From Halorubrum vacuolatum (GTDB lineage: Archaea; Halobacteriota; Halobacteria; Halobacteriales; Haloferacaceae): a stretch of DNA of 61,039 bases. A model generated the notes under the pieces. The model was not told where the DNA came from and made no database searches. It saw nothing but the letters and a program-made list of their open reading frames with translations. The stretch lies in assembly GCF_900188065.1 (NCBI RefSeq), contig NZ_FZNQ01000017.1, positions 1 through 61,039 of the forward strand. Direction: 5' to 3'. The translations under genes were made by a program, and so were the position numbers. This document shows, one piece after another, positions 6,722 to 51,750 of this stretch; position 1 is the first letter of the stretch; every line of letters starts with the position of its first letter.

Positions 6722-7327
6722 AGCCGCATTTAGTTAGTAGTGCGGTTAAAGATACCCCTCGGTGATGGCTTCTATGTGGCTTCAATATGCTAGAGGCGGC
6801 GTTTTGCAAATATTAGCCAGGAGAGCAAGTATCGCTGATACACACATACATCACAGCAAAAGTATATGTTATAACCATATATTGATAGTATATAAAATAA
6901 TAAACATTATTCGATTTTCCCCGTCCGAGGGGCCGGGTTAACATCCTCCACGCGCTGGAGCGCAAGGCTTTCTGCTCGATCCTCGGTAAAATCGTGGGCT
7001 TCGGGCCTCCCAATCAATATGAAGACACAGAGGTGGGAAACGACCCCCTGTGATTGGTGCGCCGGCGACACGATGAATCTGGCAGATCAGTACGCCGGCA
7101 AGCAGATGTTTGTTTGCTGAACATAAAATAAGTGCCGATTTAACTGAAATAGGTGCTAAATCCCCTTCCTCAAGGAACCGTCGACGGGTCACGCGAAAGC
7201 GTACTTGAACCCCGAGGAAACGCGCAGCCTGAATCTCTACTTCGTGGAATCCTCGTCGCCAGACGAAGTCTGGCGGGCAGCCAGAACGCAAGGCGTTCTG
7301 GGGACGCCTTTTAAAATAGGGAGGCGG
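6722..7327. other. Intergenic region with decayed IS605-type sequence
   Basis: 6722-6920 is AT-rich and probably holds the promoter of the SMC-related gene. 6930-7310 resembles tnpB-element ends: arms such as CCAGACGAAGTCTGG and CCAGAACGCAAGGCGTTCTGG recur in related form at 9241-9300. No intact gene is seen; short minus-strand frames here look like translated hairpins. Confidence 0.45.
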
Positions 7328-7552
7328 TCAATTATTTGTAGAATCTTGACGGACATACAGACCTTTATGTACCCGATCAAGATAATCAAGTTTTGCGAGC
7401 AAAGCTAACCGTGCATTAACGTATGCTCGATCTGCATCAATCAACTCAGCAAGCAGCCCGGCGGTATACCGCCGCCCATCGGACATGACGTCGAGGATCG
7501 CCTCGTCTGTCTTGTTGAGGGGGCCAGTCTGTTCCTCATTATCTATTGTCAT
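7328..7552 (-). CDS. Small winged helix-turn-helix protein
   Basis: A 74-residue protein with the pattern LNKTDEAILDVMSDGRRYTA, then LLAELIDADRAYVNARLALL, and a final LDRVHKGLYV wing. This is a complete wHTH domain and little else. Such stand-alone domains are common in haloarchaea and are presumed DNA-binding regulators; the target is unknown. The start is supported by GAGGTGA six bases upstream of the ATG at 7552. It lies next to the tnpB element but shows no other linkage. Confidence 0.8.
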   Translation of the reverse strand: MTIDNEEQTGPLNKTDEAILDVMSDGRRYTAGLLAELIDADRAYVNARLALLAKLDYLDRVHKGLYVRQDSTNN

Positions 7553-7644
7553 AGGTAATCACCTCTGCTTGCGTCAGTCCACGCTTGTCACATGGTTATT
7601 GTAGACTCAGCGTAATATACTCTCGTACTTGGAGAGGGAGAGTC

Positions 7645-7830
7645 ACCAACCCACGACTAAAGTCGTGGGCTTGTCGGTGGACTCCCGTTCTGGCCAACCC
7701 TACTGGGTGGCAGGCGAGTAGCCGCCATTCACGTTCAGCGTCCCCGACTTCAGGGCGAGGTGACGTGTCGCCCCTCCGTGCGGAGACTTTTGCCCCGCAC
7801 GGAGGCGTCGAAAGCCGATGTTCTTCGCCG
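7645..7830 (-). ncRNA. Predicted omega (re) RNA of TnpB
   Basis: TnpB proteins use a guide RNA formed from the element's right end, overlapping the tnpB 3' end. Here the corresponding stretch runs from the last codons of tnpB to the hairpin at 7650-7669, with the guide expected just beyond the hairpin. This is inferred from position and family knowledge, not from a covariance search. Confidence 0.4.
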
Positions 7831-8914
7831 CGTTGTAGTCTGCGTGGACTTCGTAACCGCACTTCCGGCAACAGAACTTCGCTTGTGACCGGCGGTTCTC
7901 GTCCAGCGTCGTCCCGCATTTTGAACACCGCTTGGACGTGTACGCCGGGTCGACCTGCGTGGCCTCGATCCCTTCCGCTTCGGCTTTGTATGCCACGTAG
8001 TCGTACAGGCGTCGGAACGCCCACGCGTGGAACTTCTTTGCGCCGGGCATCCGCTCGCGGATGTCCGTTAACTCCTCGAAGGCGATCTCGTCGCACTCGT
8101 GCGCGATGGCTTCGTGGACGATGGCCTTCGAGATGCGGTGGAGGTACTCGTTGACCCACCGTCTCTCGCGGTCGCCCATCCGTTCGATAGTGCGATGGGC
8201 CGATTCTGTTCCTGTCCGTTGGAGGTCGCCACGAACGCGCTCGTACTCCCGGCGACGGTGGGTGAGGTAGTCGCCGCTCCAGAACATCCCGGTTGACGTG
8301 ACGGCGATCTGCTCGATACCGAGGTCGACACCGAGGACTGTGCTGTGCTCGGCGTCGCCTTCGTCCGGTAGCTCGGACTCCACGTCGGCCTTCGTTCCGA
8401 TGTGGAGGTAAAACGTGTCCGTCGCGTCGCGGTACTGAAGCGTCGCGCCCGTCACTTCGTAGGTGTCGTCGCGGAGGTATTCGGTCTGCGGGTTGTCGCC
8501 CTCCGGTGGGAGAACGTACTCGGCTTGGATACGTCCGTTCACCGTGGAGAGGGAGACGTGGTCGTCGTGGAACGTCGCACTCCGTTTGTCGTAGCGCACC
8601 GAGGGCGTCGTAAAGTGTGGTTGCGACGCCTTCTTACCGTTCTGCCACCGAGCGACGACGCCCTTGATGGCTTCGGCGGCTCGGTTGCGTGCTGATTGAA
8701 CGAGATTCGCTTGTAGGCGTGTCTGTTCGCGCACGTCGGAGTACGTCCGGTCGTGGAGTTCCGTCTTGGATGTGGGCTTGTAGTCGTCCTGCCATGCGTC
8801 TTGGACGACGTAGTTGCACGCCCACAGATACTCCTCGACCGTTTCGTGGAGGAGGGTCGCATCGCTGTCGTCTACGTCGAGTTTGACGACGACCGTGCGA
8901 CGCACCTCCGCCAT
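7700..8914 (-). CDS. tnpB: RNA-guided endonuclease TnpB
   Basis: A 404-residue TnpB of normal length and apparently intact. The RuvC-like residues are present: D in GVDLGIEQIAV, E in IAFEELTDI and D in HADYNAAKNIG. Between the second and third lies a four-cysteine zinc finger (CSKCG and CCRKCG). The N-terminal half is the WED/REC-type DNA- and RNA-binding part. The protein cuts DNA next to a short target motif, guided by RNA from the element's end. An AT-rich TATA-like stretch (TTTATGAA on the minus strand) lies about 28 nt before the ATG, which fits a leaderless transcript. The C-terminus ends NVNGGYSPATQ, the usual tail of halophile copies. Confidence 0.92.
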   Translation of the reverse strand: MAEVRRTVVVKLDVDDSDATLLHETVEEYLWACNYVVQDAWQDDYKPTSKTELHDRTYSDVREQTRLQANLVQSARNRAAEAIKGVVARWQNGKKASQPHFTTPSVRYDKRSATFHDDHVSLSTVNGRIQAEYVLPPEGDNPQTEYLRDDTYEVTGATLQYRDATDTFYLHIGTKADVESELPDEGDAEHSTVLGVDLGIEQIAVTSTGMFWSGDYLTHRRREYERVRGDLQRTGTESAHRTIERMGDRERRWVNEYLHRISKAIVHEAIAHECDEIAFEELTDIRERMPGAKKFHAWAFRRLYDYVAYKAEAEGIEATQVDPAYTSKRCSKCGTTLDENRRSQAKFCCRKCGYEVHADYNAAKNIGFRRLRAGQKSPHGGATRHLALKSGTLNVNGGYSPATQ

Positions 8915-9053
8915 ACTTCATATGTAGAAGTATAGATTCATAAATGAAACGGTAACATGGGGGAGTCAGACTGCCGTTTTTCGGTGGTTTTTTGCTCTCA
9001 TGTCGGCTTCCTCCCACGGCTAAAGCCGTGGGTTTCCGCCTTGAAATTGCTAT

Positions 9054-9510
9054 GACATCCTCCCCGCCGTTCACGGTGGGGTTTCCTCGCGCTGGGGATA
9101 TCGCTTACCGGCCCACGGAGGCAACTTGCGGGTTCGCATGCTCCTCGTTGGAACAAGAGCGTGATGACTCTGACCACTCGTGGTCGTTCCATTTGAGGCA
9201 GACAGGCCGTGCCATCGACCGTGTTACCGCTGTCTGCCGTTGACGAGACGCTCTGCGTCTCGTTCGCCAACCAGAACTCGAAGCGTTCTGGTGACGCCGA
9301 AGGAAGGTCTCTGACGCCACGAGGCCGGCGTGCCCCTCGAAGCCACACGGACACGTCAACGTATCACGGTGTCGCGTCGTATCCTCTGTCGAACCGCAGT
9401 TCGGACACTCCTGACTCGTCCACGCCTCAGACCGTACTTCCACCGAGATGCCGTATTCCTCAGCGGTACACATCAGTCGATTCACGAACGCTCTGAGAAA
9501 CCGCCCTGGG
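9054..9510 (-). pseudogene. Decayed tnpB C-terminus (minus strand)
   Basis: The frame reads [40 protein letters not shown] and a final [12 protein letters not shown], which is the zinc-finger and tail end of a second TnpB type, distinct from 7700-8914. Its right-end hairpin (CTCCCCGCCGTTCACGGTGGGG) is at 9059-9080. The N-terminal two thirds are missing. The upstream part joins a second, oppositely oriented tnpB relic near 9510. Confidence 0.7.
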
Positions 9511-9514
9511 TACG

Positions 9515-9805
9515 TGAACACTCGTATCCGTCTTGTGGATTTGAAGCGGACAGGGATGCGAACGCGGCGTGGAACATCCTTTCTCGCGGCCTCGAAGACG
9601 TAGGAGTGGGTCACTCCGAATCAACGTCCCCAGAAATCAGAGATTTCTGGTGTGCAGACGAATCGCTGTGCGATTCGTGAACGCCTGTGGAGACTGCGCT
9701 CCCTGTGGATACGTCCGTATCTCCAAAGCGCGTCGTGAAAACAGGAAGCCCCACTCTCAAGGAGCGAGCGGCGAAAGTCGTGAGCGAGTAGGGTGGGGTA
9801 GTTCA
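9515..9805 (+). pseudogene. Decayed tnpB C-terminus (plus strand)
   Basis: The plus strand reads [20 protein letters not shown] (zinc finger and RuvC III region) and then, after frame changes, a tail like TGSPTLKERAAKVVSE in another frame near 9740-9791. At least one frameshift has occurred. It points away from the minus-strand relic, so the two tnpB 3' ends are joined head to head. This suggests an inversion or two abutting insertions. Confidence 0.65.
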
Positions 9806-9845
9806 CCTGCAAAGCACCCTTACCTCAGCGGGCGCCGATTTTCAA

Positions 9846-10121
9846 TTAAAGCTCAATATATTGTGATTCCCACGCAACCCGATCCTCAAGTTCGCGTTCT
9901 CCACGTTGAGTGAGTACATAATAGTTCGTCCGCTCGTCTTTTTTTCCTTTCTTAATGAGACCCTTGTGGACGAGTGAATCCAGATTTGGGTACAACTGAC
10001 CAGAGTTGATCTCCTTATGATAGTAGTCCTCAACTTCATTTTTGATAGCCAATCCATGCGGTTCATCAAGACCAGCAACAGTGAAGATTAAATCACGCTG
10101 AAATCCCGTCAGGTCGTGCAT
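9846..10121 (-). CDS. PadR-family transcriptional regulator
   Basis: A 91-residue PadR regulator. It begins MHDLTGFQRDLIFTVAGLD, continues EPHGLAIKNEVEDYY and SGQLYPNLDSLVHKGLI (recognition helix and wing), and ends in LTQRGERELEDR. This is the full N-terminal PadR wHTH with a very short C-terminal helix. The ATG at 10121 was chosen because a TATA-like sequence lies 26 nt upstream, giving a leaderless transcript. Haloarchaeal PadR proteins are usually local repressors. The target may be itself or the adjacent PAS/GAF gene; this is inference. Confidence 0.88.
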   Translation of the reverse strand: MHDLTGFQRDLIFTVAGLDEPHGLAIKNEVEDYYHKEINSGQLYPNLDSLVHKGLIKKGKKDERTNYYVLTQRGERELEDRVAWESQYIEL

Positions 10122-10142
10122 GCAGCCATATATACTAATAGT

Positions 10143-10151
10143 AGATAAAAG
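10143..10151 (-). promoter_or_regulatory. TATA box of the PadR gene
   Basis: CTTTTATCT on the minus strand is centred about 26 nt before the ATG at 10121. This is the spacing of haloarchaeal leaderless promoters and supports that start. Confidence 0.55.
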
Positions 10152-10211
10152 CATAGTGAATTACCGCGGTCAACCTAACGCTCGAGATATCTCACGCTTC
10201 ATTGTGAAATG

Positions 10212-13200
10212 TCAACGATTAAGGAATTGGTCAATAACCTTTGCCTCTGCTGCTCGGAGATGTTGGTGTAGCGTCGACGAAGAGATGTCGAATCGGTCAG
10301 CAAGCTGAGCACCGTCGATCTTGCGTGGGTCTTCGTAGTATCCCTCACGGAACGCAGTCTCCATGATCGCCTGCTGTCTGGCTGTCAACCCAGCATCATT
10401 TTCTGGTGAGCCCTGACCACCTGAGGACTCAGAGGGATGGTATTTTGCCACGAGCGTGCACGAACCATGTTCTTCGGTGAGTCGCTCACGTACTATGCCA
10501 ATCATGTCCGAATTAGTCGTCAAAAATCGGATCACGCCACCAGATGGCTGAGCGCGGAGGCCGGTGATGCGCGTGTTTGTCACTGTGGTAATTTCCTGCA
10601 GAGTTCCGAGTGCATTCGATTCGTGGTCGGTTATCGAGAGCTCGATCCCATGTTGTTCTTCGGAGAGACGCTCAACTGAGTCGATAACAATACCCGGTGT
10701 CTCGATAAGGTACTCACGGAGTTCCGTATCCTCGTACCCGTCGGCAGTTCCTGCAACGTGTACTGCGTCTGAACCGGTCATCGCCACGTAATTGATACTA
10801 ATCGTTCCTCCCTTGGGGAGTTCCGGAAACAGCGGCGCAGGATCGTGACACTCGATAGAAAACACGACGGGTGACCCATCAGTGGGGGGCATCTCAAGAG
10901 CTGAGATACATTTTCCAGCTACATCCGCGACGGCACGGATCGCCCGCCGCTCAGGGCCCCCGAAGCGGTCAACAGTCGTACTCACAAGTTCGACGACGGC
11001 ATAGACGGTTCCGCTGTGACTCACCGGTGCCGCCAACGACTCGCGATAGCCGAAGTACAACAGCTGGCTTCGCCACTCATCGTACGCCTCGTCCGCTGGC
11101 TGCGTGTCACTAACGTGTTCGACCGTGTTTCGCTTGCCGGCGATCACGGCAGGGAACTCTTCATCACGTTCGTACAGCTTCGCCGGACCGCCGACCTCTG
11201 AGGCGGTGACGACGTCGAGCAACTCATTGACCGGGTCGTACGTGCTGAGGTGTGCATAGTCTCCGAGATGCTCGCCAAACGCCTGAACCGCATTGAAAAC
11301 CTCCGACTGCGTCCGTGCACTGACCACCGCCTCGATGGCGTTTATGACCCCCTCCCAGAGGGTTTGGTAGCGGTCAGCAATTTGTTGAGTATTTTCAACG
11401 TCACCTGAGAGTTCCTGGAGGGATGACGCCTGCTGAAGCTGTGTTAACGCGGCCGCAATTTGATTGGTGACAGCTTGGAAAAATGCTTCAATTGTTTCAT
11501 TACGTTCCTCTACCACAGCAATCAACACACTCGTCTTGTCTAATGAGGTGACGAATACAGAACTGGTCGGCACAGCTGTTCCTCCACTTGGCCCAGAGTC
11601 GTCGGCCGGCTCCGTCTCCCTCCCCCCTCGGGTTTCGCCGTTCGACCGCGAGTCAATTACCGATGCAGCATCGAGCCACTGGAGTTCGCTCGCGCCGAGC
11701 GCCTGCCAAACCGCCGTCTCGCCGGCGGCGACCCGCTCAGGGAGATGGTACGCGTCAGCGTCTCCGGCAACGGCTCGCCGGACCAGAGCACCGTCTTCGG
11801 GATCCTGCACATAGATGGCCACCTCATCCGTGGTGACGGCCCCCGCGACGGCGTTGACACAGGCGTTATATGCATCCGTCACGGTTTCAGCCTGAAACAC
11901 GCTGTTGCTCACGGCATAGAGGTTTTTCAACTTCCGCTGGCGCCGTAGTTCCTCATTGGCGCCGGTCAGATCGGTGATATCGTTGGCAACACCGAGGACT
12001 GCCCGTTCCTCGGTATCGACCGGGTCGAACGGGATCTTCCACGTTTCGAGTATCCGCTCGTTGCCGTCGGCATCGGTGAGCGTCTCCTCCGACCGATGTA
12101 ACCGTGTTCCCGTCTCGAGCACGTGTCGATCATCCTCCGTGAACGCATCGACTTCCTCGGGGTCGGCCGAATAATCCGCATCGGTCGATCCGATCAGGTC
12201 CGACACTGTCGTCCCGTACGCATCGGCGACAGCCTCGTTTGCGAGAATGAACTCGCCCTTCGCGTTCTTTGCGAAGATCAGCTGTGGCACCGTGTCGATG
12301 ATCTGTTTCAGTTGGTTCCGCTCGGATTCTGCCCGCTCTCGTGCGTCTTCCAGCCGCCGCTTCCGGTCGACTAACGCGATCGCAACCTCAAGATATCGGG
12401 CGATGATGCCGATGATCTCACGTTCTTCGGTCCTGAGATCGTCTCTCATAGGCGAGCCAACGATCAACACGCCGTCACGCTCCACCGGCACGATGATCTC
12501 CGATCCCAACCGCGTGTCCGGGTTGTGCGCGTCCGACCGATCGCCGAGGTTCGGGTAGTAGCGCATTTCGCCCGCATCGAACGCCTCCCATGCAAGGGAT
12601 TCCCCCGGTGCAAACCGGGGGGGTTCATCGACGATTACGTCGCTGTCGGACGAGACCTTCAGTGGCACCAACCTGTTCTCGTCCTCGGTGAAGCTCCAGT
12701 AGCCGATAAGCGATCGGTTGAGGAGATCAGTAATCGCTTCGATTGCCACCTCGATGGCTGCCTCACGGTCCGAAGCCGCCATGAGCGCCCCAACGAGCTT
12801 GCGCGTTTCTGCGAGCCGCTCGCGCATACGTTCACGGTCGCTGAGGTCGACGTTCACACAGGCAAGCCCCCCGTCGGGAAGCCGGGCGAGCTCGACACGA
12901 TGAGTGACAGCTGAACCATCCTTGCGGCGCCCGACCAGTTCCCCCTCCCAGGAACCGACCTCCATGACTACAGGGAGAATATCGGTGCGGATCCGCTCCA
13001 CTACCTCGTCGTCGTAAAACTGCGTCCAGCTGCCGCCGATCAGCTCATCGGTCCGGTCGTAGCCGAACAAGGAGGCGTGTGCGTCGTTGAGATACGAATA
13101 GGTTTCGTCGGCATCAAGCAGTCCGATGCCGGCCGGGGAGATATCTATCGCCGTTGACTGGCGTTCGAGCTGTTCTATGCGCGCCAACCGATCTCGTGCG

Positions 13201-15099: not shown

Positions 15100-15167
15100 A
15101 GCTCGATTCTATCTGGGGGGCGTAACGGTTATAGGGTGGGGGTGTGAAGGAGAATTTAGTCCCGAGT

Positions 15168-15914
15168 ATGAGCGTGATAACTGACTACAAGCTAAGAGAT
15201 CCAGACATTCAATTTCTGCTGGCGGTGAAGGAAATATCAGAAAATCCAAATGAATATGAGTTCACTGATCAGGGGAAAACTCCGGCTAATGCTGCGGCCC
15301 TCCGACGCGAAACAGGGCTGTCGAAAACGCAGATCGACTACCGGGTGAAACGGGGTGAACGTGGGTTCGCTGAGGACGGGATGAAACTCCTCCGCACCCA
15401 TGCTCCGATGATCAATGACGAGGGTGGTTACGATCCGCGATCGGTGGAGTTGACGGACAAGGGGGAGCGGGTCGTCGCTGAGATTCGGGATGTTTTGTCG
15501 GGCTCATCGGGCGGTGGTGATGGGGGCGGATTGGGGGAGGATGCCGAGGCTATTCGGGAGGAAATTGAGGCGCTCAAGAACGAGGTTTCTGAACTCCGTT
15601 CTGAACTTGAAAAGAAATCTGAAGCTCTTGACCAGATTGAGGCGTCAGAAACGGGGGCGCTCTCGTCTGAGTATGTTGATCGGTTGGAAGCGGTGTTGGG
15701 TGCGGTCCCGTTCCAACAGATCGCGCTGAAGCACGTCTTGGGTGTAGACATAGATCATCTTGAGGCGGCTGACAAGGACGACCGTGAGATCGAGCGGCTT
15801 CGGAAAGAGGTGCTTGCCACCCTCAATGATCAGGGTGGGGACGCTCCAAACGACCCCGACGATCATGCTTCTGATGGGGACTCGATCACTCAGACGATCG
15901 ACCTCGATCCGTAA
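15168..15914 (+). CDS. wHTH and coiled-coil protein, possible plasmid DNA-binding factor
   Basis: A 248-residue protein. The N-terminal 100 residues look like a winged helix (ALRRETGLSKTQIDYRVKRG, then VELTDKGERVVAEIRDVL). A Gly/Ser linker (GSSGGGDGGGLGED) leads to a long coiled coil (EEIEALKNEVSELRSELEKK), then a short domain (YVDRLEAVLGAVPFQQIALK) and an acidic tail. This architecture suits a DNA-binding dimer for control, partition or transfer. The ATG at 15168 was chosen; a GTG at 15144 is possible. The iteron-like repeats lie immediately upstream. The next gene is convergent, and the 303 bp between them hold nothing I recognise. No named family was recognised. Confidence 0.75.
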   Translation: MSVITDYKLRDPDIQFLLAVKEISENPNEYEFTDQGKTPANAAALRRETGLSKTQIDYRVKRGERGFAEDGMKLLRTHAPMINDEGGYDPRSVELTDKGERVVAEIRDVLSGSSGGGDGGGLGEDAEAIREEIEALKNEVSELRSELEKKSEALDQIEASETGALSSEYVDRLEAVLGAVPFQQIALKHVLGVDIDHLEAADKDDREIERLRKEVLATLNDQGGDAPNDPDDHASDGDSITQTIDLDP

Positions 15915-16217: not shown

Positions 16218-19200
16218 TCAGCTTCCCGTGAGCAACACTTCGTCGGTGGGGTCTTGGTCCATCGTCAGCGGTGCCTCTCCATCTTTGGTGTAGTCTTTGA
16301 GGGCGGCCCGTAGGAGCGCCTGTTGTTTCTTACTGATCTCGATGTTCCCTCTCGCGGCGGCCTCGATCTGCACCGGAGGGAGCGTGACCTTCGGATGGGC
16401 GGCAAGGTTATCGGGCGTCGGGGGTGTCGCGTAGATCGTCTCGTCGGACGTGAGCTCGTGGTCTTCGGGTGGCTGTTCGACGTGAGCGGCGGCCTCCTCC
16501 GGTGTCATACCCCCTCCGGTGTCCTCGGTGTCTCCTCCCTGCTCGTCGGTGCTGGTGTCTTCAACCTCCTCCACGACGATCTCCTCGGCGGGAACGGCGC
16601 TGGTCGGGAGTGACTGATCGCCTTCTATCAGGTCGTTGAGCGCGGCCCGGATACGGTCGAGTTCCTCCTCGCTCGGAGTGAACACCCCATCTGCGAGCGC
16701 GTGGATGGTATCTTCTGACAGCTCCACTCGGGGGTCGTCAGCGAGACGTGCGGGTGTGGGCGGTTCGCGGTATTCGACGGTCGGCTCTGCAAGCTCGGGG
16801 GCGTCGTCTCGACCGCTGCCTTCGCTCCCTTCATGTTCCTGTTCGACGTCGGCTTCGCGCTCAGGCTCGTACTCTCCCGTAGACTGGCCTCCATCGGCTT
16901 CTGCGCCCTGTTGGACATCTACATCTGCGACTGCTCTCTCGTCTTCCTCGCCGCTCTCAACGGCGTCTGTCTGGGCGCTCTGTTCGTCGGTGTCGCCCTC
17001 GACAGGTTCCTCGGGGATGACGATCTGCTCGGAGAGGTCCTCGACGTCTTCGATGGCATCGCCCGCGACCGGCGAGAGGTCCGTGATCGCTTTCATCAGC
17101 GCGATGACCGTGTTGGTCCCCGGCTCTTTCTCGCCGGTCGCGATGGCCGTGATCTCCTCAGCGGTGAGGTCGACCCGGCTGTCTTCTGCGATACGGGCAG
17201 GCGTCGGTATCTGGTCGGCCTCTACCGGCTCCTCCTCGTGGGCGTCGGCTGGCGTGTCGTTGTGTTCCGCGCTCTCGTCGTTCGCTGGCGGCGTCTCGTC
17301 GTGTTCGGTGTCGTCTGCGTCGTCTTGTACCTCTTTGCTGGTGTCGTCTGTATCGGCCTCCTCGTCGCTCTCAGCGGCTTCTGTCTGGACGCCCCCTTCG
17401 GGAATGACGATCTCTTCGCGAAGGCGCTCTATTGGGTAGTCGTCGGTGAAACCGGTATTGCTGAGAATGACGTTCCTAATCTTCTGCTCACGCGGCCACG
17501 GTAGGCTGAGGTCGCCGGTCACGTAGTCGGCGATCTGTTGGGCCGTCAGTTCAACGCGCTCGTCAGCGGCGATCCGCGACGGCGTGAGCGCGTCGTCGTC
17601 AACGGGCGGGCCTTCCATCGGTTCGTCGCCCGACTCGTCGCTGTCGTCGCTCTCGTCGGCGTCCTCCTCTCCTGTACCTTCGTCGCCGTCGTCTTCTGAC
17701 GCCTCCTCTTCTTCTTCTTCTGTGTCTTCGTCGTCGGTTGTCGCTTCCACGTCGCCGTCTGTGTCGCCGATCTCCCCGACCGAGAGGTTCGACGCGCTGA
17801 CGCCGAGCTCATCAAAGAGTGGTCGGCACTCGCCACGGTGGTATATCTGCGGCTGGTTGTACTCCTCGTTGTCGCTGTCGGGGAAGATGATGATCTCGAA
17901 ATTGTCCGTGGTCGGCCACTCATCGAAGCGGGCTTCGGGAATGAACGGCCCACGGAACGGCACCCAGTTTTGGAGGATCCCCTCTTTGTCCGGGTAGTAT
18001 TTCTTCTCGCCGTCGACGTGGAGGACGTATTCTTCTTCGGATTTGTCGTACTCGTAGTAGGCCGGAACCGCGTACTTGTTGCCCTCGTGTGCTTCTTCGG
18101 GCGTGTCAAAGCGGGCAAACTCGATATTCTCCTCTCCGTGTGGTGTCTCGACGGCGGCAACGACGTCTCCGGTGTCTTTCTCTCGATACCAGATGGTCGA
18201 CCGATTCGTCTCACCGTCGCCATCGAGTTTAGGCCGGAGGGCAATCTGATCTTCACCTACGCGGTAGTCGCCTCCACCGTCGTTGTAATACCGGGGGTGG
18301 CCGTCCTCAGTCGGTGACTTCCGGAACGTAACCTCGTCACTAACTACCTCTGCACTTCTGGTGCCACCCTCCGTCTCGTAGATGACCTTCTCGGCGCGTT
18401 CCGCCCAGTAGGTGAACCCCCCATGCTTGGCCGACCCGTCTTTCACGGCGAAGACACACTTATCGCCGTTCTCCATCGCTTTCCGGAGGTTATTGAACGT
18501 CTGGAACGGGTACTTGATCGTCGACGTCTCCGCTTCGATCGCTACGTCGTCGGGCCCCGCAAAGTTCCACACGCCGGGGTACTTCTCGCGAAGCTCGTCC
18601 TGCCGCTCGTTGATCGCATCAAGCGTCTTACTTCGGGAGAGGTTGTCGTCCACGTCGGTCGGGTCGATTGGCACTTCTGCAACCCCGTCCGGCGCTTCTT
18701 CTCCTTCCTGTTCGGGAAGCCACGTCTTGTAGCCGATTTGTGTGAACGCGACGTAGGCTTCACCGAGGATCCAGCGGTGGTCGTCGCCCCCGCCGGAGCC
18801 GGCGCTTCCCGTATCTTGCTGAAGGACGATCCCCCGGCCTTGCGAGGTGAGCCGGATTGAGGTATCCCCGTCTGAACGCTGTGTCTCGGCATACGCTTCG
18901 TTGACCTGCTCGTAGATATTCGACAGCTCTGAGAGGCTATCTACGGCGGCGTCGGGGAGTCTGACCAGTAGCTCTTGTTTCGCGTCTTCAAGCGAAACGT
19001 ACTCGTTGGGGTCTTTTCCGGCCCTGAGTCGTGCGGCGAAGATGCTCTCAAGGACGGCATCGAGATGGCGTTCCACGACCTCTTTCGCGCTGGTGGGCTG
19101 GCTTGCCTGCTGTCGACCGGGGGCGTTGGCGGGGGCATTGCCGGGCTCGGTCGACGGGAGTAGCCCGCCGGGTGAGGTGTCGCGGTCTTCCGCGCCTTTG

Positions 19201-21185
19201 ATGTTCGGATCGTCAGGTGTCGGTGTCTGGTCGACAAGCTGTTGAAGATACATCTGCCTCTCATCTCCATCTGCCATCGCAGCGTATCTGCCGATGCCGG
19301 TTTCCCACCGGCCTTGTCCTTCGTTGAACAGAAGGTTTTGGTAGACCTCTTCGTCGCTTCGCCGTCTCCGGCCTAACTTCTTGAGGCTGGCGTCGATCGC
19401 CGCTTGGGCCTCGTCTGTCGTTCGGAGAGGCGGGAATGGCGGATAGATATACACGCGGAACGCATCGGAGCGTTCCATGTTCTCGCTGATCGTCGTTCGC
19501 ATCCACACATGGTAGTTCACCTCCTCGGTGAGATCCTGCGGATCAAGCCCCAACTGCGTGTTGTAGGTTCTCGCGGATTTCTGATCCCCGGGGTTGAACG
19601 ACATGATCGTATCACAGTTGGTCGTGATCGCTTCCACGACGTTACTCGGGAGTTGGGCGGGGTACTGGTTGGCGAGTGTCATGGACAGCCGGTATGACCG
19701 GCTCTCGGAGATCATCGCGGGGATCGTTTCGTCCCCGAGTGCGAGGTTGTCAAACTCGTCACAGAACAGGTAGAAAGGTTCGCGCTCATACTGTGACTTC
19801 ATCGACCGGGCACGGATATGTGACCAGATACGCCGAATGACGGCCATGCCGAGCATCTGTTTGAGCTCGCGTGGCTGTGAGCCCATCCGGACGATGATGA
19901 TCTTATTGTTGTCGATCGCCTCGGGGATGTTGATCCCACCGGAACGGAAACCGATCATGCGCCGGGCGACCGGGTTTTGTATCCACGGGAGGAACCGACC
20001 GAGCAGCGGCTCAAGGTCGTCTTCGCTCATTTTCGAGATGGTATCGAGATGGGGAGCGACGAACCGGAGGTCTGCCTTGTGTGCCCGGGCGGCGAACTCG
20101 TAGCGTGACGCCTCGGATTTAAGCACATAATACATATCGACAAGGTTCATCTCCGGGGCATCATCGGGCGTCTTTGCGTTATACAGGTTCATCGCGGTGA
20201 TGAGCGAGCCCGCAACGCGGTCCATGCGTGGCCCCCAGTAGTCGTCGCTGGCGGCGAGCATCTTTTTCAAATCATCCACCAGCGAAGCGAGCGCGGCGTC
20301 GTATTCGTCGTCGTCGGGATCGAGATTGAGGGTGATGAAATTGAACCCGGAGAGGTAGTCACCGCTGGCTCCGGGCTCGATCCATACCACGTCGTCAAGC
20401 CGGTGTTCTGGGATCGTCTGCATCAACCGGAAAGAGTCGTCACCCTTCGGGTCGATGAAGCACAACCCGGCTCCCGATTCAATGAGTTGTCGGGCGTCGT
20501 TAGTCAAGAGCGTGGACTTCCCGTAGCCGGTGACGCCGAAGACGGCGCGGTGTCGGAAGAGGTGGTTTTTGTCTATCGAGGCATCTCGACCGTTCCGAGT
20601 ACCCTTCCCGACGAACAGCGGGGCGTCTGGATGGTCGCGTGGTATGTCTCGGAGGGCTTCTTCGGCCTCGCCGGTCGCATACACTTCGACCCCATCTTGC
20701 CCGGGTGGTAACTCATTGGGGTCGATCTCCTCGGGGATACCGAATGATTGGAGTTCTGCGCCGTACCGTTTTTTCCGCTTGACCTCGGTGTAGGCGTACT
20801 CAAACTCCTCCATCTCATACACCATGTCGATGACGCCGACGAATTCCCCGTGGATCTGGTGAATATCGTCACGGTCGCCACCGGAGATGTTGTCAATATC
20901 GAGTACCTCTTTCCCGCTTTGTAGGCCACTAACCAGTTCTTCGGGTCTGGGGTTCATGTCCGGTGGGACACACACGGGGGTTTTGCTATCTACCGTGATC
21001 TGGTCGACATGAAGGAGTACGGACCCTATGTGTTCGCACAGCCGTTTCCGATCTTCAAGGCTGAGATTTTTGCTCCTGATCGCTTCTATCGCCTCATCAA
21101 TTCGCTGGCGTGTATGCCGGACGTCGATTTTTCGGATGGGCTCACCATCGGGCTCATCGTCGTCTCCGCCGAATATATCGAACAT
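16218..21185 (-). CDS. Coupling-protein-type (VirD4/TraD-like) conjugation ATPase with C-terminal repeats
   Basis: A very long protein of 1655 residues. Residues about 180-600 form a HerA/VirD4-type ATPase: Walker A GVTGYGKST (217-225), the following ARQLIESGAGLCFIDPKGDD, and Walker B FYLFCDEFDNLA (471-482). There is a coupling-protein-like middle section, then a unique region (about 700-1150) and a highly acidic linker. The last 450 residues contain four spaced copies of a roughly 40-residue module (TPSRIAADERVELTAQQI, TPARIAEDSRVDLTAEEI, TPARLADDPRVELSEDTI and TPDNLAAHPKVTLPPVQI). It probably feeds DNA to a type IV secretion-like channel; no membrane segment is obvious. The upstream gene 21201-22919 is 15 bp away and codirectional. 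Confidence 0.85.
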   Translation of the reverse strand: MFDIFGGDDDEPDGEPIRKIDVRHTRQRIDEAIEAIRSKNLSLEDRKRLCEHIGSVLLHVDQITVDSKTPVCVPPDMNPRPEELVSGLQSGKEVLDIDNISGGDRDDIHQIHGEFVGVIDMVYEMEEFEYAYTEVKRKKRYGAELQSFGIPEEIDPNELPPGQDGVEVYATGEAEEALRDIPRDHPDAPLFVGKGTRNGRDASIDKNHLFRHRAVFGVTGYGKSTLLTNDARQLIESGAGLCFIDPKGDDSFRLMQTIPEHRLDDVVWIEPGASGDYLSGFNFITLNLDPDDDEYDAALASLVDDLKKMLAASDDYWGPRMDRVAGSLITAMNLYNAKTPDDAPEMNLVDMYYVLKSEASRYEFAARAHKADLRFVAPHLDTISKMSEDDLEPLLGRFLPWIQNPVARRMIGFRSGGINIPEAIDNNKIIIVRMGSQPRELKQMLGMAVIRRIWSHIRARSMKSQYEREPFYLFCDEFDNLALGDETIPAMISESRSYRLSMTLANQYPAQLPSNVVEAITTNCDTIMSFNPGDQKSARTYNTQLGLDPQDLTEEVNYHVWMRTTISENMERSDAFRVYIYPPFPPLRTTDEAQAAIDASLKKLGRRRRSDEEVYQNLLFNEGQGRWETGIGRYAAMADGDERQMYLQQLVDQTPTPDDPNIKGAEDRDTSPGGLLPSTEPGNAPANAPGRQQASQPTSAKEVVERHLDAVLESIFAARLRAGKDPNEYVSLEDAKQELLVRLPDAAVDSLSELSNIYEQVNEAYAETQRSDGDTSIRLTSQGRGIVLQQDTGSAGSGGGDDHRWILGEAYVAFTQIGYKTWLPEQEGEEAPDGVAEVPIDPTDVDDNLSRSKTLDAINERQDELREKYPGVWNFAGPDDVAIEAETSTIKYPFQTFNNLRKAMENGDKCVFAVKDGSAKHGGFTYWAERAEKVIYETEGGTRSAEVVSDEVTFRKSPTEDGHPRYYNDGGGDYRVGEDQIALRPKLDGDGETNRSTIWYREKDTGDVVAAVETPHGEENIEFARFDTPEEAHEGNKYAVPAYYEYDKSEEEYVLHVDGEKKYYPDKEGILQNWVPFRGPFIPEARFDEWPTTDNFEIIIFPDSDNEEYNQPQIYHRGECRPLFDELGVSASNLSVGEIGDTDGDVEATTDDEDTEEEEEEASEDDGDEGTGEEDADESDDSDESGDEPMEGPPVDDDALTPSRIAADERVELTAQQIADYVTGDLSLPWPREQKIRNVILSNTGFTDDYPIERLREEIVIPEGGVQTEAAESDEEADTDDTSKEVQDDADDTEHDETPPANDESAEHNDTPADAHEEEPVEADQIPTPARIAEDSRVDLTAEEITAIATGEKEPGTNTVIALMKAITDLSPVAGDAIEDVEDLSEQIVIPEEPVEGDTDEQSAQTDAVESGEEDERAVADVDVQQGAEADGGQSTGEYEPEREADVEQEHEGSEGSGRDDAPELAEPTVEYREPPTPARLADDPRVELSEDTIHALADGVFTPSEEELDRIRAALNDLIEGDQSLPTSAVPAEEIVVEEVEDTSTDEQGGDTEDTGGGMTPEEAAAHVEQPPEDHELTSDETIYATPPTPDNLAAHPKVTLPPVQIEAAARGNIEISKKQQALLRAALKDYTKDGEAPLTMDQDPTDEVLLTGS

Positions 21186-21200: not shown

Positions 21201-22919
21201 TTACCGGCTGTTTTCGGAGTTCTTCTGCTGGTCGACGTGATCTACCCCATCGTCTGCGGCCCCCCATGACGTCTCGGGCTCATTATCGCCGCTCTCACTA
21301 CCTGTGCCGCGTCTGGTTATACCGAAGACGTCGATTGTCCCGTCCGAATCGTCCTGTGAGCCCGCTGGCTCGGGCTCCGTTGGGAATGGGCCTTCCTGAT
21401 AGATACTCTCGACAGGCTCATCGGGCGGTGCACCCGGTTGCGCTTCCGAGCCTTTAACCAACGGATCGGAATCGTCAGCCCCATTCTGTTGATTAAATTG
21501 CTCTGCGTCAGTTTCGAGGGCATCGTCTCCTTCGCCTACTGCATCGGCCCCTGACGCAGTTGCACCTTGCTCGGGGCTTTGCCCGTTTTGATTCGCGGTC
21601 GGGTCTGACTGCCCGTTCTCTTGTGTACGCAGTGGGTGGCTCCGGGGACTCGTCCTATGTCTGCTGTGGTGTGTTTCATTGCTCGCCTGAGTCGCCCATT
21701 GGTTGACTCCCGGGTGCCGGTCGCCGTTGCGTGTTTCCTCACGCTTTTCCTCGTCTCTCCGCCCGGCCTCGGCGGGCACACCGGGGCCAGTCTGCTGTTT
21801 CGCCCAATCCACGACCGGCGTGTTGATCTCCTCATTCGGTATGTGGGCGATACTTCCGAGTGCTGAGACGGGTTGGAGAACGGTGGGCGCTCCCGGGCCG
21901 AACTTAACGCGACTCAGCCAGCTAATGTCGTGGGTTCGCCCGGCGACTTGCTTGAGGTGATACGGTATATCCTCGGGATCAATCGAGTACGGCTCAAGCC
22001 CCTGCTCGGTGAATGAGTTGTAGTATTTCTCAAAGTCGCTCGCGACCGTGTTGCAGCGCCGCTCGGCGATCTCCTGATACGGCGAGATCGCGACGACGCG
22101 GATAGTCATGTAGTAGCCTTTCGCGCCGTGGAGTTTGTCGACAATTTTGGCGCTACGCTTCCGTTTCGATCCGGGGTCGCGAAGCTCCCACCCTTGGATG
22201 TGGTTGCCGGTGAGCTCGCCTTCTTTGATCTGGGCGGCGGCCTCGGTGACGTTCCGCCCGTAGGGGAGCTTCTTGGTCCAGACGTCGCGTGCGGGCTCGA
22301 AGATGGTCTGGACCATGACTCGACAGTCTTCGGCGGTGACGCGGATGCCGTCTGAGGTTTGGTCTTCTTCGACCACCATATCGGAGGTAATGTCGCCGTA
22401 GGGGTCGACCTCGAACTCCTCCTCTGAGATTTTGCACTTGATCGGGTAGAAGAACGGCTTTTTTAGCCGCATCCCGGCCATTGCGACGTAATCCCCTTTC
22501 TCAAATTTGGGGAACATGTCGTCGGCTTCGGCGATCTGGGAGTTGGGGTAGTTTTTGCGTATCTGCCGCTCGAATTGGTTGGCGTCGACGCGGGTATCGG
22601 GTTTGAGGTAGAATTGTAATTTCCCACCGTCATAGACCATTTCGTAGGAGTGTTGGTGGGAGTCGGTCTGGATGAATTTGAATCGGCCAAAGCCAATCTT
22701 TCTCTCGCGGGGGTCGTGGACGGTTTCGTATAGGTTGATGCTGGCGTCCATGCCCTCGTTTTCTCGGGGTGGTCGCACGCGGAGGCGTGGCCCGGAGGTT
22801 TGTTCGGCAAGTTCGATGCCCTCTTTGTAGGTTTCGTACAGTTCGTCGTCAACTTGGATCGCCGGATAGACGCTCGTCTCTTCAACGAGGGCGTCGGCGA
22901 TCTTGTTCAGGATTTCCAT
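21201..22919 (-). CDS. Partner of the coupling ATPase (conjugation module)
   Basis: A 572-residue protein with no ATPase motif. Residues about 1-370 are folded: GFGRFKFIQTDSHQHSYEM, YGRNVTEAAAQIKEGELTGN and IPNEEINTPVVDWAKQQ can be seen. The rest is a Gln/Asn/Asp/Glu-rich disordered tail. The 'IAHIPNEEINTPVVDW' pattern resembles the N-terminal domain that, in some bacterial coupling proteins, lies on the same chain just before the ATPase. Here the two would be separate genes, 15 bp apart. The start was placed at the ATG at 22919 because GGTGAG lies 8 bases before it; 22934 is the alternative. The split-protein reading is inference. Confidence 0.7.
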   Translation of the reverse strand: MEILNKIADALVEETSVYPAIQVDDELYETYKEGIELAEQTSGPRLRVRPPRENEGMDASINLYETVHDPRERKIGFGRFKFIQTDSHQHSYEMVYDGGKLQFYLKPDTRVDANQFERQIRKNYPNSQIAEADDMFPKFEKGDYVAMAGMRLKKPFFYPIKCKISEEEFEVDPYGDITSDMVVEEDQTSDGIRVTAEDCRVMVQTIFEPARDVWTKKLPYGRNVTEAAAQIKEGELTGNHIQGWELRDPGSKRKRSAKIVDKLHGAKGYYMTIRVVAISPYQEIAERRCNTVASDFEKYYNSFTEQGLEPYSIDPEDIPYHLKQVAGRTHDISWLSRVKFGPGAPTVLQPVSALGSIAHIPNEEINTPVVDWAKQQTGPGVPAEAGRRDEEKREETRNGDRHPGVNQWATQASNETHHSRHRTSPRSHPLRTQENGQSDPTANQNGQSPEQGATASGADAVGEGDDALETDAEQFNQQNGADDSDPLVKGSEAQPGAPPDEPVESIYQEGPFPTEPEPAGSQDDSDGTIDVFGITRRGTGSESGDNEPETSWGAADDGVDHVDQQKNSENSR

Positions 22920-23282
22920 GTTTATTCTCACCATTTTCCAGGAGTTGATGCTCTATTGGACTCAACACCGACGCTAACAGAAGTCCTAAAATCTGGCGTT
23001 CTGTTAATTCAAAATATCTAGGTGTACCGGGTCGTTTATACTGTTTCACTGGTTTCATCATATGAATCACAACTCCTTTTCATACGTTTTCAACCAATGT
23101 TTTACAGAAAGAGATACTTAGAACATTTTCCCCGATTATCACAGTTGATTTTTTTCTGAGCGTTAAAGAAACAGAGGTGGCCCTAGGCCTTTTTCTTTAT
23201 GTATATATGAGAGAAAATTAGACAGTGACTCAGGGATTAGAAATTAATTAAATCCTCAAAAGGTAGAGAATTCTGTCAGCTA
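22920..23282. other. AT-rich spacer with promoter-like sequence
   Basis: No gene is seen. TTTATGTATATATGAG at 23194-23209 and AT-rich runs on both sides suggest promoters for the conjugation genes. The region separates them from the wHTH gene at 23283. Confidence 0.4.
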
Positions 23283-37717: not shown

Positions 37718-38950
37718 ATGACGCCCGACTCTTCACCCAGTTCTGTCGACGATCCACTCTTTGAATCCGGGCATCGCATCTTCGCGAACAAGGATCTCCT
37801 GAAAATTGGCCACGTGCCGGAGGCTGACCGGATCGTCGGTCGCGACGAGGAAATCTCGAAGCTCGCGAAACGTCTCAACGGTGCTGTCCACGGGTACTCC
37901 CCGGAGAACGTGATGATCTACGGGAAAACGGGGACCGGCAAATCTCTCGTTTCAAAACACGTCTGTCAACGAGCTCAAAATGCCGCTCAGGATGGCGTCG
38001 AGATTGGGACAGCGTATATCGACTGTGCTGAAGACAACACGGAGACTCAGGCGATCTCCTCACTGGCCGCGAAGCTGAACGATGAATCTTCGACTGGAAT
38101 CTCCGTCCCACATACCGGCCTCAGTACGTCGAAATACTACAAACTCCTCTGGAAGACGCTCGACGCTCAATTTGATTCTGTGATCATCATCCTCGACGAG
38201 ATCGATCTGATGAACGACGACAGCGTGTTGATGAAGCTCTCGCGCGCTGAGGAGGCGGGGAAAATCGACTGTAGCGTCGGCGTCATCGCGATCAGCAACA
38301 AGATCCAGTACGTCGACAACGTGAACGAGCGCGTGAAAAGCAGCTTCCAGCACAAGGAGTTGTTCTTCAAGCCATACGACGCCAACCAGCTCCGGGAGAT
38401 CATGTTCAACCGCGAGGACGCCTTCCAGGACGACGTCCTTTCCGAGGACGTGATTCCGCTCTCGGCGGCTTTCGCCGCGCAGGAACACGGCGATGCTCGG
38501 AAGGCGATCGACATTCTTCGCCACGCCGGGGAGGTCGCCTACGAGGCCGGGGCAGAGCAAGTGACGGAGGAACACGTCCGCCAGGCACAGCAGCACGCCG
38601 AAAAGGACCGGTTCAGAGAACTCGTGAACGGCGCACCCACGCAGGCGAAGGCGGCGTTGCTGGCGCTCACGGAGCTGAGTGTCAACAGCAACGATGATGC
38701 GTTCCTCACGAGCCGGGTGTACGACCAGTACGAACGCATCTGCAATCATCTCGATATAGATATCCTCTCCGTCCGCCGGTTCCGCGACATCCTGAAAGAG
38801 CAAGCCTTCCTCGGGGTTGTCGAAATCGAGAAGATCAACAAGGGAAGTGCGGGCGGCATCCACCTCCAAAACCGACTCATCGAAGATCCCCAGGTCGTCC
38901 GCGAAACGATCCTCGAGGACAGCCGGATTCAGGACTGGACTCGCAAGTAG
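37718..38950 (+). CDS. orc: Orc1/Cdc6 replication initiator 1
   Basis: A 410-residue AAA+ initiator. Walker A is IYGKTGTGKSLV, Walker B is IIILDEIDLM, and sensor 1 falls in IAISNKIQYVDNV. The lid is KAIDILRHAGEVAYEAGAEQ, and a C-terminal winged helix (AKAALLALTELSVNSNDDAF, VRRFRDILKEQAFLGVVEIE) contacts the origin boxes. ORB-like repeats flank the gene on both sides. A TATA box (TTTATACT, 37683-37690) directly follows the nearest box (37648-37669), so the protein may repress itself. This is probably the main initiator of the replicon. Confidence 0.92.
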   Translation: MTPDSSPSSVDDPLFESGHRIFANKDLLKIGHVPEADRIVGRDEEISKLAKRLNGAVHGYSPENVMIYGKTGTGKSLVSKHVCQRAQNAAQDGVEIGTAYIDCAEDNTETQAISSLAAKLNDESSTGISVPHTGLSTSKYYKLLWKTLDAQFDSVIIILDEIDLMNDDSVLMKLSRAEEAGKIDCSVGVIAISNKIQYVDNVNERVKSSFQHKELFFKPYDANQLREIMFNREDAFQDDVLSEDVIPLSAAFAAQEHGDARKAIDILRHAGEVAYEAGAEQVTEEHVRQAQQHAEKDRFRELVNGAPTQAKAALLALTELSVNSNDDAFLTSRVYDQYERICNHLDIDILSVRRFRDILKEQAFLGVVEIEKINKGSAGGIHLQNRLIEDPQVVRETILEDSRIQDWTRK

Positions 38951-39089: not shown

Positions 39090-41258
39090 CTACGACAGTT
39101 CGTTGGTGGCTCCGAACGAGTTCAAAACGGCGTCCCTCTCACCGGAGAGCTCTCGACGAATGTCGGATCGGTCCCATCCGAGCGGTGAAAGCACGCTCTC
39201 GATTGCTCTGACCAGCTGTGTCTCGTAGTACGAGGCGTCGTAGGACTCGATCGCTTCGTGGGCGAGGGCGACCCGATCTCGCGAGGATTTCTCGTCGTCG
39301 ACGACCACGTACTCAATATCCTGGCCCGGGTGGACTGCCAGGTCCTGCTCGCGGGCTCGCTTTAAGGCGGCCACGTTCTGGGTATTCTGTGAGTAGCCTT
39401 CCAGCGGTTTGGAGACACGGTTCCGCTCGACGAGCCGCTCTACTGTTATGTTTCCCGTCTGCAGTTCGTCGATTGCTCGTTCGAGCCGTCCGAGCACCGC
39501 GTCCGGTGATCGCGTGGCATCGAGCCGGTCGAGACAGTCCCGCTGGACGTCCTCGATGAACGGCGGGGTCGAGCGTTGCCGGGCTTCGATGCCTCTGATC
39601 TTGAAGTCGTTGTCGCCAGCGACCTTCCCGAAGTACTTCGTCAACGCCCCGGCGTCGCTCTCGCACTGAGGCACGAACGCCACCCAGTCGTAGTGGGCTT
39701 CGTGTTCGAGCCGAATCTCGACGCAGTCGGTGATCTCCGTTGCGAGCGTCTCGAGATCCTCACGGTTTTCGTCGTCGACGTCTGGATCTGGAGTCACCCA
39801 GATCGAGTCGACGATCCCATGGACGACGTGCCAGCCGCCAGCTTCCAGCCGATGCTTTGCTTCCAACAAAATTTCGCGAGCGAACGCGTTAATCGCCTCG
39901 TGGCATTCGATCCGCCCGAATTTGGCGTTGCTGAACCCCTGATACCCGAAACAGGCGACTAGAATCCACTTCAGGGCCCCTGACCGACCTTCGAGTTCGT
40001 CGAGCCGGTCTTGGTCGGGCTTATCGCCCTGCTGTTCTCGACGAATGTCGGCTTTGATTTCGTCGCGCGCCTCGATGATCGGTTCGAGAACGTCGACGAG
40101 GTAGCCGCGCTTGTCACAGATCGAGTAGTCGAGTTCGGGAACATCGCTACGGTCGCGATGGCACTCACACCGGATGACGTCCGGTGAGACGTTCCGCGTA
40201 CAGATGATGTTCGGGTATAACGAGGAGAAGTCGAGTTCGTGGACGTTCTCGTGGATGCCGACCTCGGGGGCGAAGATGAACCCACCGCGGTCGGCGTCGT
40301 GGAGCGTTCCCATCGGTTTGTAGAACTCGTGGCGCCAGGAGTTCCACGGGACGAGTACGCCGCGGTCGTGGGCCTCGCAGATCTGAATCGCAGTAAGGAC
40401 GTTCCCGATCGATGCCCAGGCCAGTTCTTGGACGGGTTTCTTCGAGCGTGAGACGAGATTGAGGACGCCGTCGAGGTTCGTCTCTCCGTAAAAGAACGTA
40501 TTCGACTCGTCGATGATCGCCCGGCCAGGGACGTTGTACCGTGCCGGCGAATGGCCGACACGTCCGTAACTCGAGTACGTCGACCGACCGGCGAGCTGCT
40601 GGTAGTCGACATCGGGCCAGCGACTCAGCGTGAAATCCTCAACGCTGGTGGCCGCGGCCATCTCATAGAGTGTCGGGATAATCTCGCTCGTCGAGCACGC
40701 GAGGATATCAGGGTTGGTGTCCTCGAGTGCTGCCTGGACGGTCGTCAGGATCTTTTCCGCCGATCCGGTGACGGTGTCGCCATCGACAGAGAACTCTGTG
40801 TACGCGTCGCGACTCGTTTCGGCCACTGGAACACTCAGGCGAAGCGTCGACAACTCAGTAGCCGGTATGGGATCGATCCCGTTCTCGAGGCAGTAGCGGA
40901 ATTCACGAGAGAGGTCGATGTTAAAACAGGCGAGGTCACCGACCGGATACTCCGATAGCTGGCGGATCTGCCGAGCGAGCGGGACAATTCGGCCGACGTG
41001 GTTGACGTCGACTGCCAGAACTGGCTCCTCGGTACGTCGGAACCCGGGCTTCCGGTTGAGACGGTCGACTCCGACCACGTCTGGATGCTGTTCGTAGACC
41101 TCACGAAGTGTTGAAAGGTCTGCTGGAGCATCTGGTGACTGATATCCAACGTAGAAGCGCGGGGTGTAGTTCTCGACGACCGTGGCCTCGCTGCCACTGG
41201 CTGCTGGTTCCCACTCGAGCACACGTCCATCCTCGAGGAAATCAATTTTGTATGGCAT
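39090..41258 (-). CDS. Family B DNA polymerase (accessory type)
   Basis: A 722-residue enzyme. Motif A is ELDFSSLYPN (341-350), motif B is KWILVACFGYQGFSNAKFG (430-448) and motif C is HGIVDSIWV (480-488). Motif C keeps the second Asp, but the first Asp of the usual DTD is Ile. The N-terminal exonuclease region (VLAVDVNHV, LACFNIDLS) lacks the normal acidic set, so proofreading is unlikely. It is shorter than the replicative PolB1. A separate exonuclease gene sits 14 bp upstream on the same strand. The polymerase may copy the replicon or damaged DNA. Confidence 0.9.
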   Translation of the reverse strand: MPYKIDFLEDGRVLEWEPAASGSEATVVENYTPRFYVGYQSPDAPADLSTLREVYEQHPDVVGVDRLNRKPGFRRTEEPVLAVDVNHVGRIVPLARQIRQLSEYPVGDLACFNIDLSREFRYCLENGIDPIPATELSTLRLSVPVAETSRDAYTEFSVDGDTVTGSAEKILTTVQAALEDTNPDILACSTSEIIPTLYEMAAATSVEDFTLSRWPDVDYQQLAGRSTYSSYGRVGHSPARYNVPGRAIIDESNTFFYGETNLDGVLNLVSRSKKPVQELAWASIGNVLTAIQICEAHDRGVLVPWNSWRHEFYKPMGTLHDADRGGFIFAPEVGIHENVHELDFSSLYPNIICTRNVSPDVIRCECHRDRSDVPELDYSICDKRGYLVDVLEPIIEARDEIKADIRREQQGDKPDQDRLDELEGRSGALKWILVACFGYQGFSNAKFGRIECHEAINAFAREILLEAKHRLEAGGWHVVHGIVDSIWVTPDPDVDDENREDLETLATEITDCVEIRLEHEAHYDWVAFVPQCESDAGALTKYFGKVAGDNDFKIRGIEARQRSTPPFIEDVQRDCLDRLDATRSPDAVLGRLERAIDELQTGNITVERLVERNRVSKPLEGYSQNTQNVAALKRAREQDLAVHPGQDIEYVVVDDEKSSRDRVALAHEAIESYDASYYETQLVRAIESVLSPLGWDRSDIRRELSGERDAVLNSFGATNELS

Positions 41259-51105: not shown

Positions 51106-51750
51106 TCACTTTATCTTGCACTCACAATTTTTTTTCTTTAGCAATTCTACAGCTCCATACTGGGTTCCACAGCTTTGACAATATACGTTAATGTCAATAA
51201 TAACTCGAAACTCTCCGATTGATATTGATCCGTTTTCATTCAATTGTGTAAATGTTGTTTCCACGACTGAAGTAGTTCGAGATTTCAATCGCTGTATTGT
51301 CTCAACTGATTTCTCAACACGATTTTCATCTGTCTTCTCGTAAGTTGCATTCCGATACTCCTTCAAATATGATCGTATCGCTTGATATGTGACAAAATCG
51401 TTTTCAAGTTGTTCAACATTAATTCCTTCTCGTTCGAGGCGGTTTCGAACTTCCGTCCGCTTTCCACTGCTTACATCTTCGTCAGTTAATAGCCGGTACA
51501 CATTTGACATCTCCCCATCTAAAACGGGCATTCCTGCTTCATTTACGGATTCTTCCAGGAGACGTTTGTTGAAACGATCTTCCAGTGAGCGTAAACTTTC
51601 ACGATTTTCATGATTTGCTGTCCATAGTTCTACTAACTTGTCTCCGAAACTCTTTTCAATCTCATATTCGAGCAGTAATTTGGCTACTTTGTTTTTTGGT
51701 TTATCTTCTTTTATAGAGTTCGAATTTTGATTTCCATTTTCACGTTTCAT
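51106..51750 (-). CDS. rdfA: RdfA-type protein, copy 2
   Basis: A 214-residue protein. KNKVAKLLLEYEIEKSFGDK, NDFVTYQAIRSYLKEYRNAT and the zinc site CQSCG plus CEC match copy 1 at 4076-4699. The composition is more Lys/Asn-rich, and GC is low. Its stop is 26 bp from the stop of the SMC-related gene, so the two are convergent and cannot be co-transcribed. Both pairs may still act together in chromosome or shape control. Confidence 0.78.
   Translation of the reverse strand: MKRENGNQNSNSIKEDKPKNKVAKLLLEYEIEKSFGDKLVELWTANHENRESLRSLEDRFNKRLLEESVNEAGMPVLDGEMSNVYRLLTDEDVSSGKRTEVRNRLEREGINVEQLENDFVTYQAIRSYLKEYRNATYEKTDENRVEKSVETIQRLKSRTTSVVETTFTQLNENGSISIGEFRVIIDINVYCQSCGTQYGAVELLKKKNCECKIK

Follow-up and report, generated by a model that had tools for sequence, protein, structure and literature searches.

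A giant haloarchaeal coupling-type ATPase with a candidate nuclease block and four related C-terminal modules that may act as docking sites

The 61,039-nucleotide stretch of Halorubrum vacuolatum DNA analysed here (the window) encodes a giant ATPase of the TraG/VirD4 type whose C-terminal tail carries four related, folded modules. We propose that it belongs to a haloarchaeal conjugation (type IV secretion) system as a soluble ATPase of the coupling type and that its tail modules are protein-docking sites, a reading that we hold to be about evenly balanced between right and wrong. The open reading frame had been recognised in a sequence-only reading of the window, and its extent was confirmed as a protein of 1655 residues encoded on the minus strand (Table 1).

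Table 1. Features of the ATPase locus, with positions in the window and residues of the ATPase.
Feature	Residues	Position	Strand	Basis
Gene in convergent orientation, 256 aa; HTH-like N-terminus and coiled coil predicted		15144..15914	(+)	locus comparison
Giant TraG/VirD4-type ATPase, 1655 aa		16218..21185	(-)	open reading frame
Module 4, at the very C-terminus	1585-1655	16221..16433	(-)	pairwise alignment, grouping
Acidic linker between modules 3 and 4		16434..16565	(-)	composition
Module 3, the one modelled	1472-1540	16566..16772	(-)	alignment, profile, AlphaFold
Acidic linker between modules 2 and 3		16773..17000	(-)	composition
Module 2	1323-1395	17001..17219	(-)	pairwise alignment and profile
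Acidic linker between modules 1 and 2		17220..17387	(-)	composition
Module 1	1196-1266	17388..17600	(-)	pairwise alignment and profile
Acidic linker ahead of module 1, net charge -32	1128-1195	17601..17804	(-)	composition
Conserved beta-rich region	931-1127	17805..18395	(-)	alignment and model
Candidate PD-(D/E)XK nuclease domain	796-930	18396..18800	(-)	alignment and model
Winged helix domain	701-795	18801..19085	(-)	AlphaFold, pLDDT 88
HerA/FtsK-type motor domain	186-620	19326..20630	(-)	Pfam matches and Walker motifs
Partner gene, 577 aa, directly upstream of the ATPase		21201..22934	(-)	locus comparison

The motor domain contains a Walker A motif (GVTGYGKS, at residue 217) and a Walker B motif (FYLFCDEF, at 471), and it matches the Pfam families TraG-D_C (PF12696; 32.5 bits, cut-off 22) and DUF87/HerA (26.9, cut-off 23.2). 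It shares the motifs and the TraG-D_C match with the TraG/TraD/VirD4 coupling proteins, as its relatives share VirB4- and TrbL/VirB6-like neighbours with them. Classical VirD4 differs in having an N-terminal transmembrane anchor, whereas no transmembrane segment was found in the window ATPase, nor in its 577-residue partner (no 19-residue window exceeded a Kyte-Doolittle value of 1.6). Such an anchor is not universal: for TraJ of pIP501, it is proposed that another protein, TraI, provides the anchoring (PMC12857230). To the plan of the TraG/TraD/VirD4 proteins the window ATPase adds a block composed of a winged helix and a candidate nuclease, as well as the tail of repeated modules. The best PDB sequence match of the whole protein was DotL, a weak one (E 0.03) confined to the motor. 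A viral origin of the ATPase was considered and set aside, with a single distant viral contig to its credit.

The link to type IV secretion comes from the gene neighbourhood. In two relatives, L050 and L051, the genes run in the order TrbL/VirB6-like, a gene of ~370-400 aa, VirB4-like, the homologue of the 577-residue partner and the ATPase, and the VirB4 of L050 matches 4ag5 (E 1e-9). VirB4-like genes also lie upstream of the partner in L053 and L054, and an upstream gene in L014 matches NCBIfam VirB4-type profiles below their cut-offs. An origin in type IV secretion is supported by these TrbL/VirB6- and VirB4-like genes ahead of the ATPase gene in two relatives. The initial description of the protein as a coupling-type ATPase thus stands on the Pfam matches and on the neighbours in L050 and L051, but it is weakened by the window's own genome, in which the search for a VirB4 of this type yielded nothing clear (one marginal match, E 0.004). 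The ATPase locus is without an adjacent VirB4 in the window, G216, L049 and L052; no VirB4 of this type was found in the genomes G216 and G286, and G395 and G396 have VirB4s away from the ATPase locus that are 38 % identical. Since a clear VirB4 is missing from the window's genome, G216 and G286, the pump may lack a channel of its own there or be a relic. Another contig of the window's genome (L018, on G000:C34, 10.3 kb) carries a second, distant VirD4-like open reading frame (28 % identity) and a 682-residue one with a marginal VirB4 match.

The same observations bear on a different interpretation, namely that the protein is not a coupling protein and is instead a HerA-type ATPase acting with its nuclease in defence or DNA repair, the modules being regulators. 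PADLOC gave weak matches of the ATPase to mad8 (E 6e-11) and to HerA, a candidate nuclease domain lies in the same chain, and three of the five module-bearing genomes tested have no clear VirB4 of this type. However, the TraG-D_C match exceeds its cut-off, and TrbL/VirB6- and VirB4-like genes stand directly upstream in two relatives, with VirB4-like genes in two more; we regard a role in defence or repair as unlikely.

The genes on either side of the ATPase are themselves conserved. The partner gene is kept beside it in the compared relatives whose contig extends that far, and in G015 homologues of the two occupy one reading frame (L016, positions 6857-11158), suggesting that their products act in concert. 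The convergent 256-residue gene is kept in all compared module-bearing loci and in L051. Elsewhere in the window, two Cdc6/Orc1-like genes together with genes for a family B DNA polymerase and for RdfA (37718-38950, 39090-41258, 44213-45238 and 51106-51750) suggest that this DNA is a plasmid or an integrated element. Among the closest known systems are haloarchaeal integrated elements bearing the fusexin Fsx1, which carry XerC/D, HerA, VirB4 and TraG/TraD/VirD4 genes (PMC9259645). They differ in that no fusexin was identified near the ATPase loci, where ten scanned genes of L050 and L051 gave no Pfam match to a fusion-protein family, and in that tail repeats are not described in the portion of that article covered here.

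Between the motor and the tail lies a region, conserved in 20 haloarchaeal relatives, that includes the winged helix, the best structural matches of which were MukBEF winged-helix chains (Z 9.7), followed by Cdc6/ORC and MarR folds. Residues 796-930 show the PD-(D/E)XK order of elements (alpha-beta-beta-beta-alpha-beta; region model pLDDT 88) and the pattern of an Asp followed by Glu-x-Glu/Lys that marks the core strands of that fold, and D833, E884 and E886 are invariant across 20 haloarchaeal relatives. In the databases searched, this candidate nuclease block had no direct structural or profile match to a nuclease; the matches returned for the whole region were filled by winged-helix structures. 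The Pfam family Replic_Relax (PF13814) was tried and not adopted as an identity for the winged helix and nuclease block: the window's genome gave no hit to it at E 0.01, and nothing in 145 genomes reached its cut-off.

This block, placed between ATPase and modules, may bear on the missing archaeal relaxase. Archaeal conjugative plasmids are described as encoding no recognisable relaxase (PMC9905601), and it has been proposed that archaea possess relaxases of an as yet unknown kind (PMC3158045). Because archaeal conjugative elements are without recognisable relaxases, the candidate nuclease as a stand-in is a worthwhile hypothesis, no more. A bolder version, in which the ATPase's own winged helix and PD-(D/E)XK nuclease cut the transferred DNA in place of a relaxase and the HTH-like modules gather interchangeable partners round the pump, strikes us as improbable.

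The presence of four related C-terminal modules was borne out by local alignment of each pair (BLOSUM62), with 2000 shuffled sequences as the reference in every case. The real scores of M1-M2, M2-M3 and M3-M4 were reached by 0/2000 shuffles each, those of the remaining pairs by 1/2000 (M1-M3), 3/2000 (M2-M4) and 11/2000 (M1-M4); copies are also kept in relatives. The length of 40 residues originally given to the module did not hold: the unit is ~70 aa long, with a 45-residue helical core (consensus PTPxRIAxDxRVxLxxxxIxAxAxGxxxPxxxxxxxLxxAxxxL) and a subsequent acidic segment ending in xEIVIPE. The T of TPxRIA, at the start of each module, falls at residues 1201, 1328, 1477 and 1590. The motif first noticed, TPxRIAxDxRVELTxxxI, is present across the modules, being loosest in module 4 (TPDNLAAHPKVTLPPVQI). 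That the linkers are acidic was likewise correct (32-47 % Asp/Glu and 0-4 % Lys/Arg).

AlphaFold, run on 17 modules, predicts a compact fold with three main helices (pLDDT 87.5), for which the assignment to the lambda-repressor-like helix-turn-helix (HTH) class is consistent but weak. Foldseek returned 37 PDB matches to the module model, nearly all of them lambda-repressor, LacI, XRE or HigA HTH domains with E of 2-10; a second structural aligner gave Z of 2.5-4.6, under the tool's middling range; and the top PDB profile match was 8tac, a designed DNA-binding HTH (E 0.16). Lambda-repressor-like (XRE/LacI) domains superpose with the modules over roughly 40-55 residues at these weak scores. Unlike them, the modules are without the first helix, and the equivalents of the recognition helix are acidic or neutral, with a net charge of 0 to -4 and almost no Lys or Arg in the 17 modules. 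As to whether the module is a known common domain, there is thus a weak HTH resemblance, but no Pfam family scored over its cut-off, HTH families included; the best Pfam candidates, Med4 and Epsilon_antitox, were at chance level and discarded. The large adhesin 6xi3 (E 1.8e-8 with the four-row profile) vanished with the 17-row profile and was set aside as chance.

The modules could accordingly be read as degenerate or active DNA-binding HTH domains that grip DNA for the motor. The structural matches and the 8tac match speak for such a role, as does a similar insert in RNA polymerase (below) that approaches the Pfam family HTH_3 (E 0.011, under the cut-off). The absent first helix and the lack of any module that passes the Pfam HTH families speak against it, and because of the charge of the recognition-helix equivalents a reading of DNA by the modules is unlikely, an argument weakened by the fact that haloarchaeal proteins are acidic anyway. 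On balance we place little credence in DNA-gripping modules. The earlier suggestion that the modules bind protein or DNA is thereby narrowed: binding of protein is plausible and preferred, by analogy with DotL and TrwB, and binding of DNA is disfavoured by the charge.

When the 3.48-Mb genome of the window was searched with a profile built from the four modules, only the ATPase matched strongly. A 17-row profile, which includes the L051 module, added one moderate match, to a 977-aa open reading frame taken as RNA polymerase A' (E 2.3e-4). A ~977-aa frame was matched in most of 52 genomes of the genus, matches that are not independent, because they all concern one ortholog. Caution is in order because the L051 module is itself part of the 17-row profile, but the four-row profile from the window had already matched the polymerase insert in G077 (E 1.8e-4). 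Profile-profile comparison of module and insert gave a probability of 96 % (P 1.5e-9, 41 columns), and a profile of the insert found the single L051 module (E 3.7e-7). The module-like insert of haloarchaeal A' spans ~65 aa after a CPxCG zinc motif (G000:C54:166153-166317 (-); also L122 and L044), a segment absent from solved archaeal RNA polymerases. By sequence, this insert in A' (Rpo1N) appears to resemble the core of the ATPase modules; it differs in being a single copy within a housekeeping enzyme, the ATPase having four.

The modules were sought in 391 genomes of the class and in a scan of the collection. Among the 391, a full-length homologue bearing three modules occurs in G216, and G286 contains a module-bearing fragment with broken frames. 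Close to a contig end, that fragment (L043, G286:C84) is spread over more than one frame and adjoins a homologue of the 256-residue gene; it has the appearance of a copy in decay or of a fault in assembly. Three modules each are present in L048 (a Natrialbaceae MAG), L049 (Halorubrum laminariae), L050 (Halorubrum sp. Atlit-26R) and L052 (H. amylolyticum), which are 72-92 % identical to the window ATPase over residues 186-1130, and in L042 as well. L051 (Halobacterium sp. TGN-42-S1; 49 % identity) has one divergent copy, and no modules were found in the more distant homologues inspected (L014, L015, L053, L054 and L066; 32-38 % identity). The possibility that the repeats disappear in homologues therefore materialises in those inspected at ~34 % identity and not in those of 72-92 %. 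The repeats are real, because close relatives keep three of them, and they are a trait of one branch and not of the family.

Homologues at ~34 % identity have an acidic tail without modules, and acidic tails occur in many haloarchaeal proteins; both facts would fit a tail that serves solubility or spacing, with acidic linkers and with repeats produced by duplication and under only weak selection. Set against this are the confident, compact module model and the retention of folded modules in five relatives, mostly with better conservation than the adjoining linkers, and we consider a mere solubility or spacing element rather doubtful. Between the window and L048, dN/dS was 0.06 in the motor, 0.03 in the candidate nuclease, 0.27-0.43 in modules 1-3 and 0.37-0.85 in the linkers; the modules are 72-77 % identical and the linkers after them 16-70 %. 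Across orthologous pairs the motor value was 0.06-0.10, and in most cases a module was more strongly conserved than the linker behind it, as between L049 and L052 (dN/dS 0.22 for the first module, 0.62 for the linker after it). The first linker made exceptions, being 83 % identical between the window and L048, above the modules, and having a dN/dS of 0.09 between L042 and L050, below them. On these sequence comparisons, the modules appear to evolve faster than the motor yet under selection, a pattern that a surface specific to its partners would be expected to show.

The last module differs in kind between relatives. Module 4 of the window groups with module 3 of G216 (support 0.98), not with module 3 of its closest relative, L048, and the last module of L049, L050 and L052 is of another type. 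From such differences between relatives, we infer that the last module was exchanged or lost more than once. In the Halorubrum relatives L049, L050, L052 and L042, the chain continues beyond the last module with a short peptide that has a conserved Trp (DDEAWDSLIDAEL, MNDGVWGAIIDSEL, DRQMWNNVLDAES); the C-terminus of the window ATPase is without it.

Docking of proteins is the reading of the modules that we prefer, by analogy with coupling ATPases whose tails hold partners. In Legionella, the C-terminal extension of the Dot/Icm protein DotL (IcmO) serves as a binding site for the adaptors IcmSW, LvgA and DotN (PMC7251119), and the tail of TrwB contacts the relaxosome protein TrwA (PMC12857230). 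The likeness to DotL would be one of role: its extension is not known to consist of repeated modules, and no similarity in sequence was seen between its tail and that of the window ATPase. By this analogy, the modules would hold partners (DNA-processing proteins, protein cargo or products of neighbouring genes) near the motor, from which DNA or protein could be handed to the pump. Multiple copies might raise avidity or accommodate different partners, and a change of the last copy might tune specificity. Were the motor to form a hexamer, as other coupling proteins do, up to 24 modules would be displayed. No account of the present arrangement came to light in the abstracts, titles and selected passages searched on haloarchaeal TraG proteins bearing nuclease domains and on coupling proteins whose tails have repeated domains, a literature that lay largely outside subscription journals.

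Coupling proteins decide the cargo of type IV secretion, and repeated, changeable docking modules would set the choice of cargo in a new way. The fused winged helix and candidate nuclease provide a testable lead on the missing archaeal relaxase.
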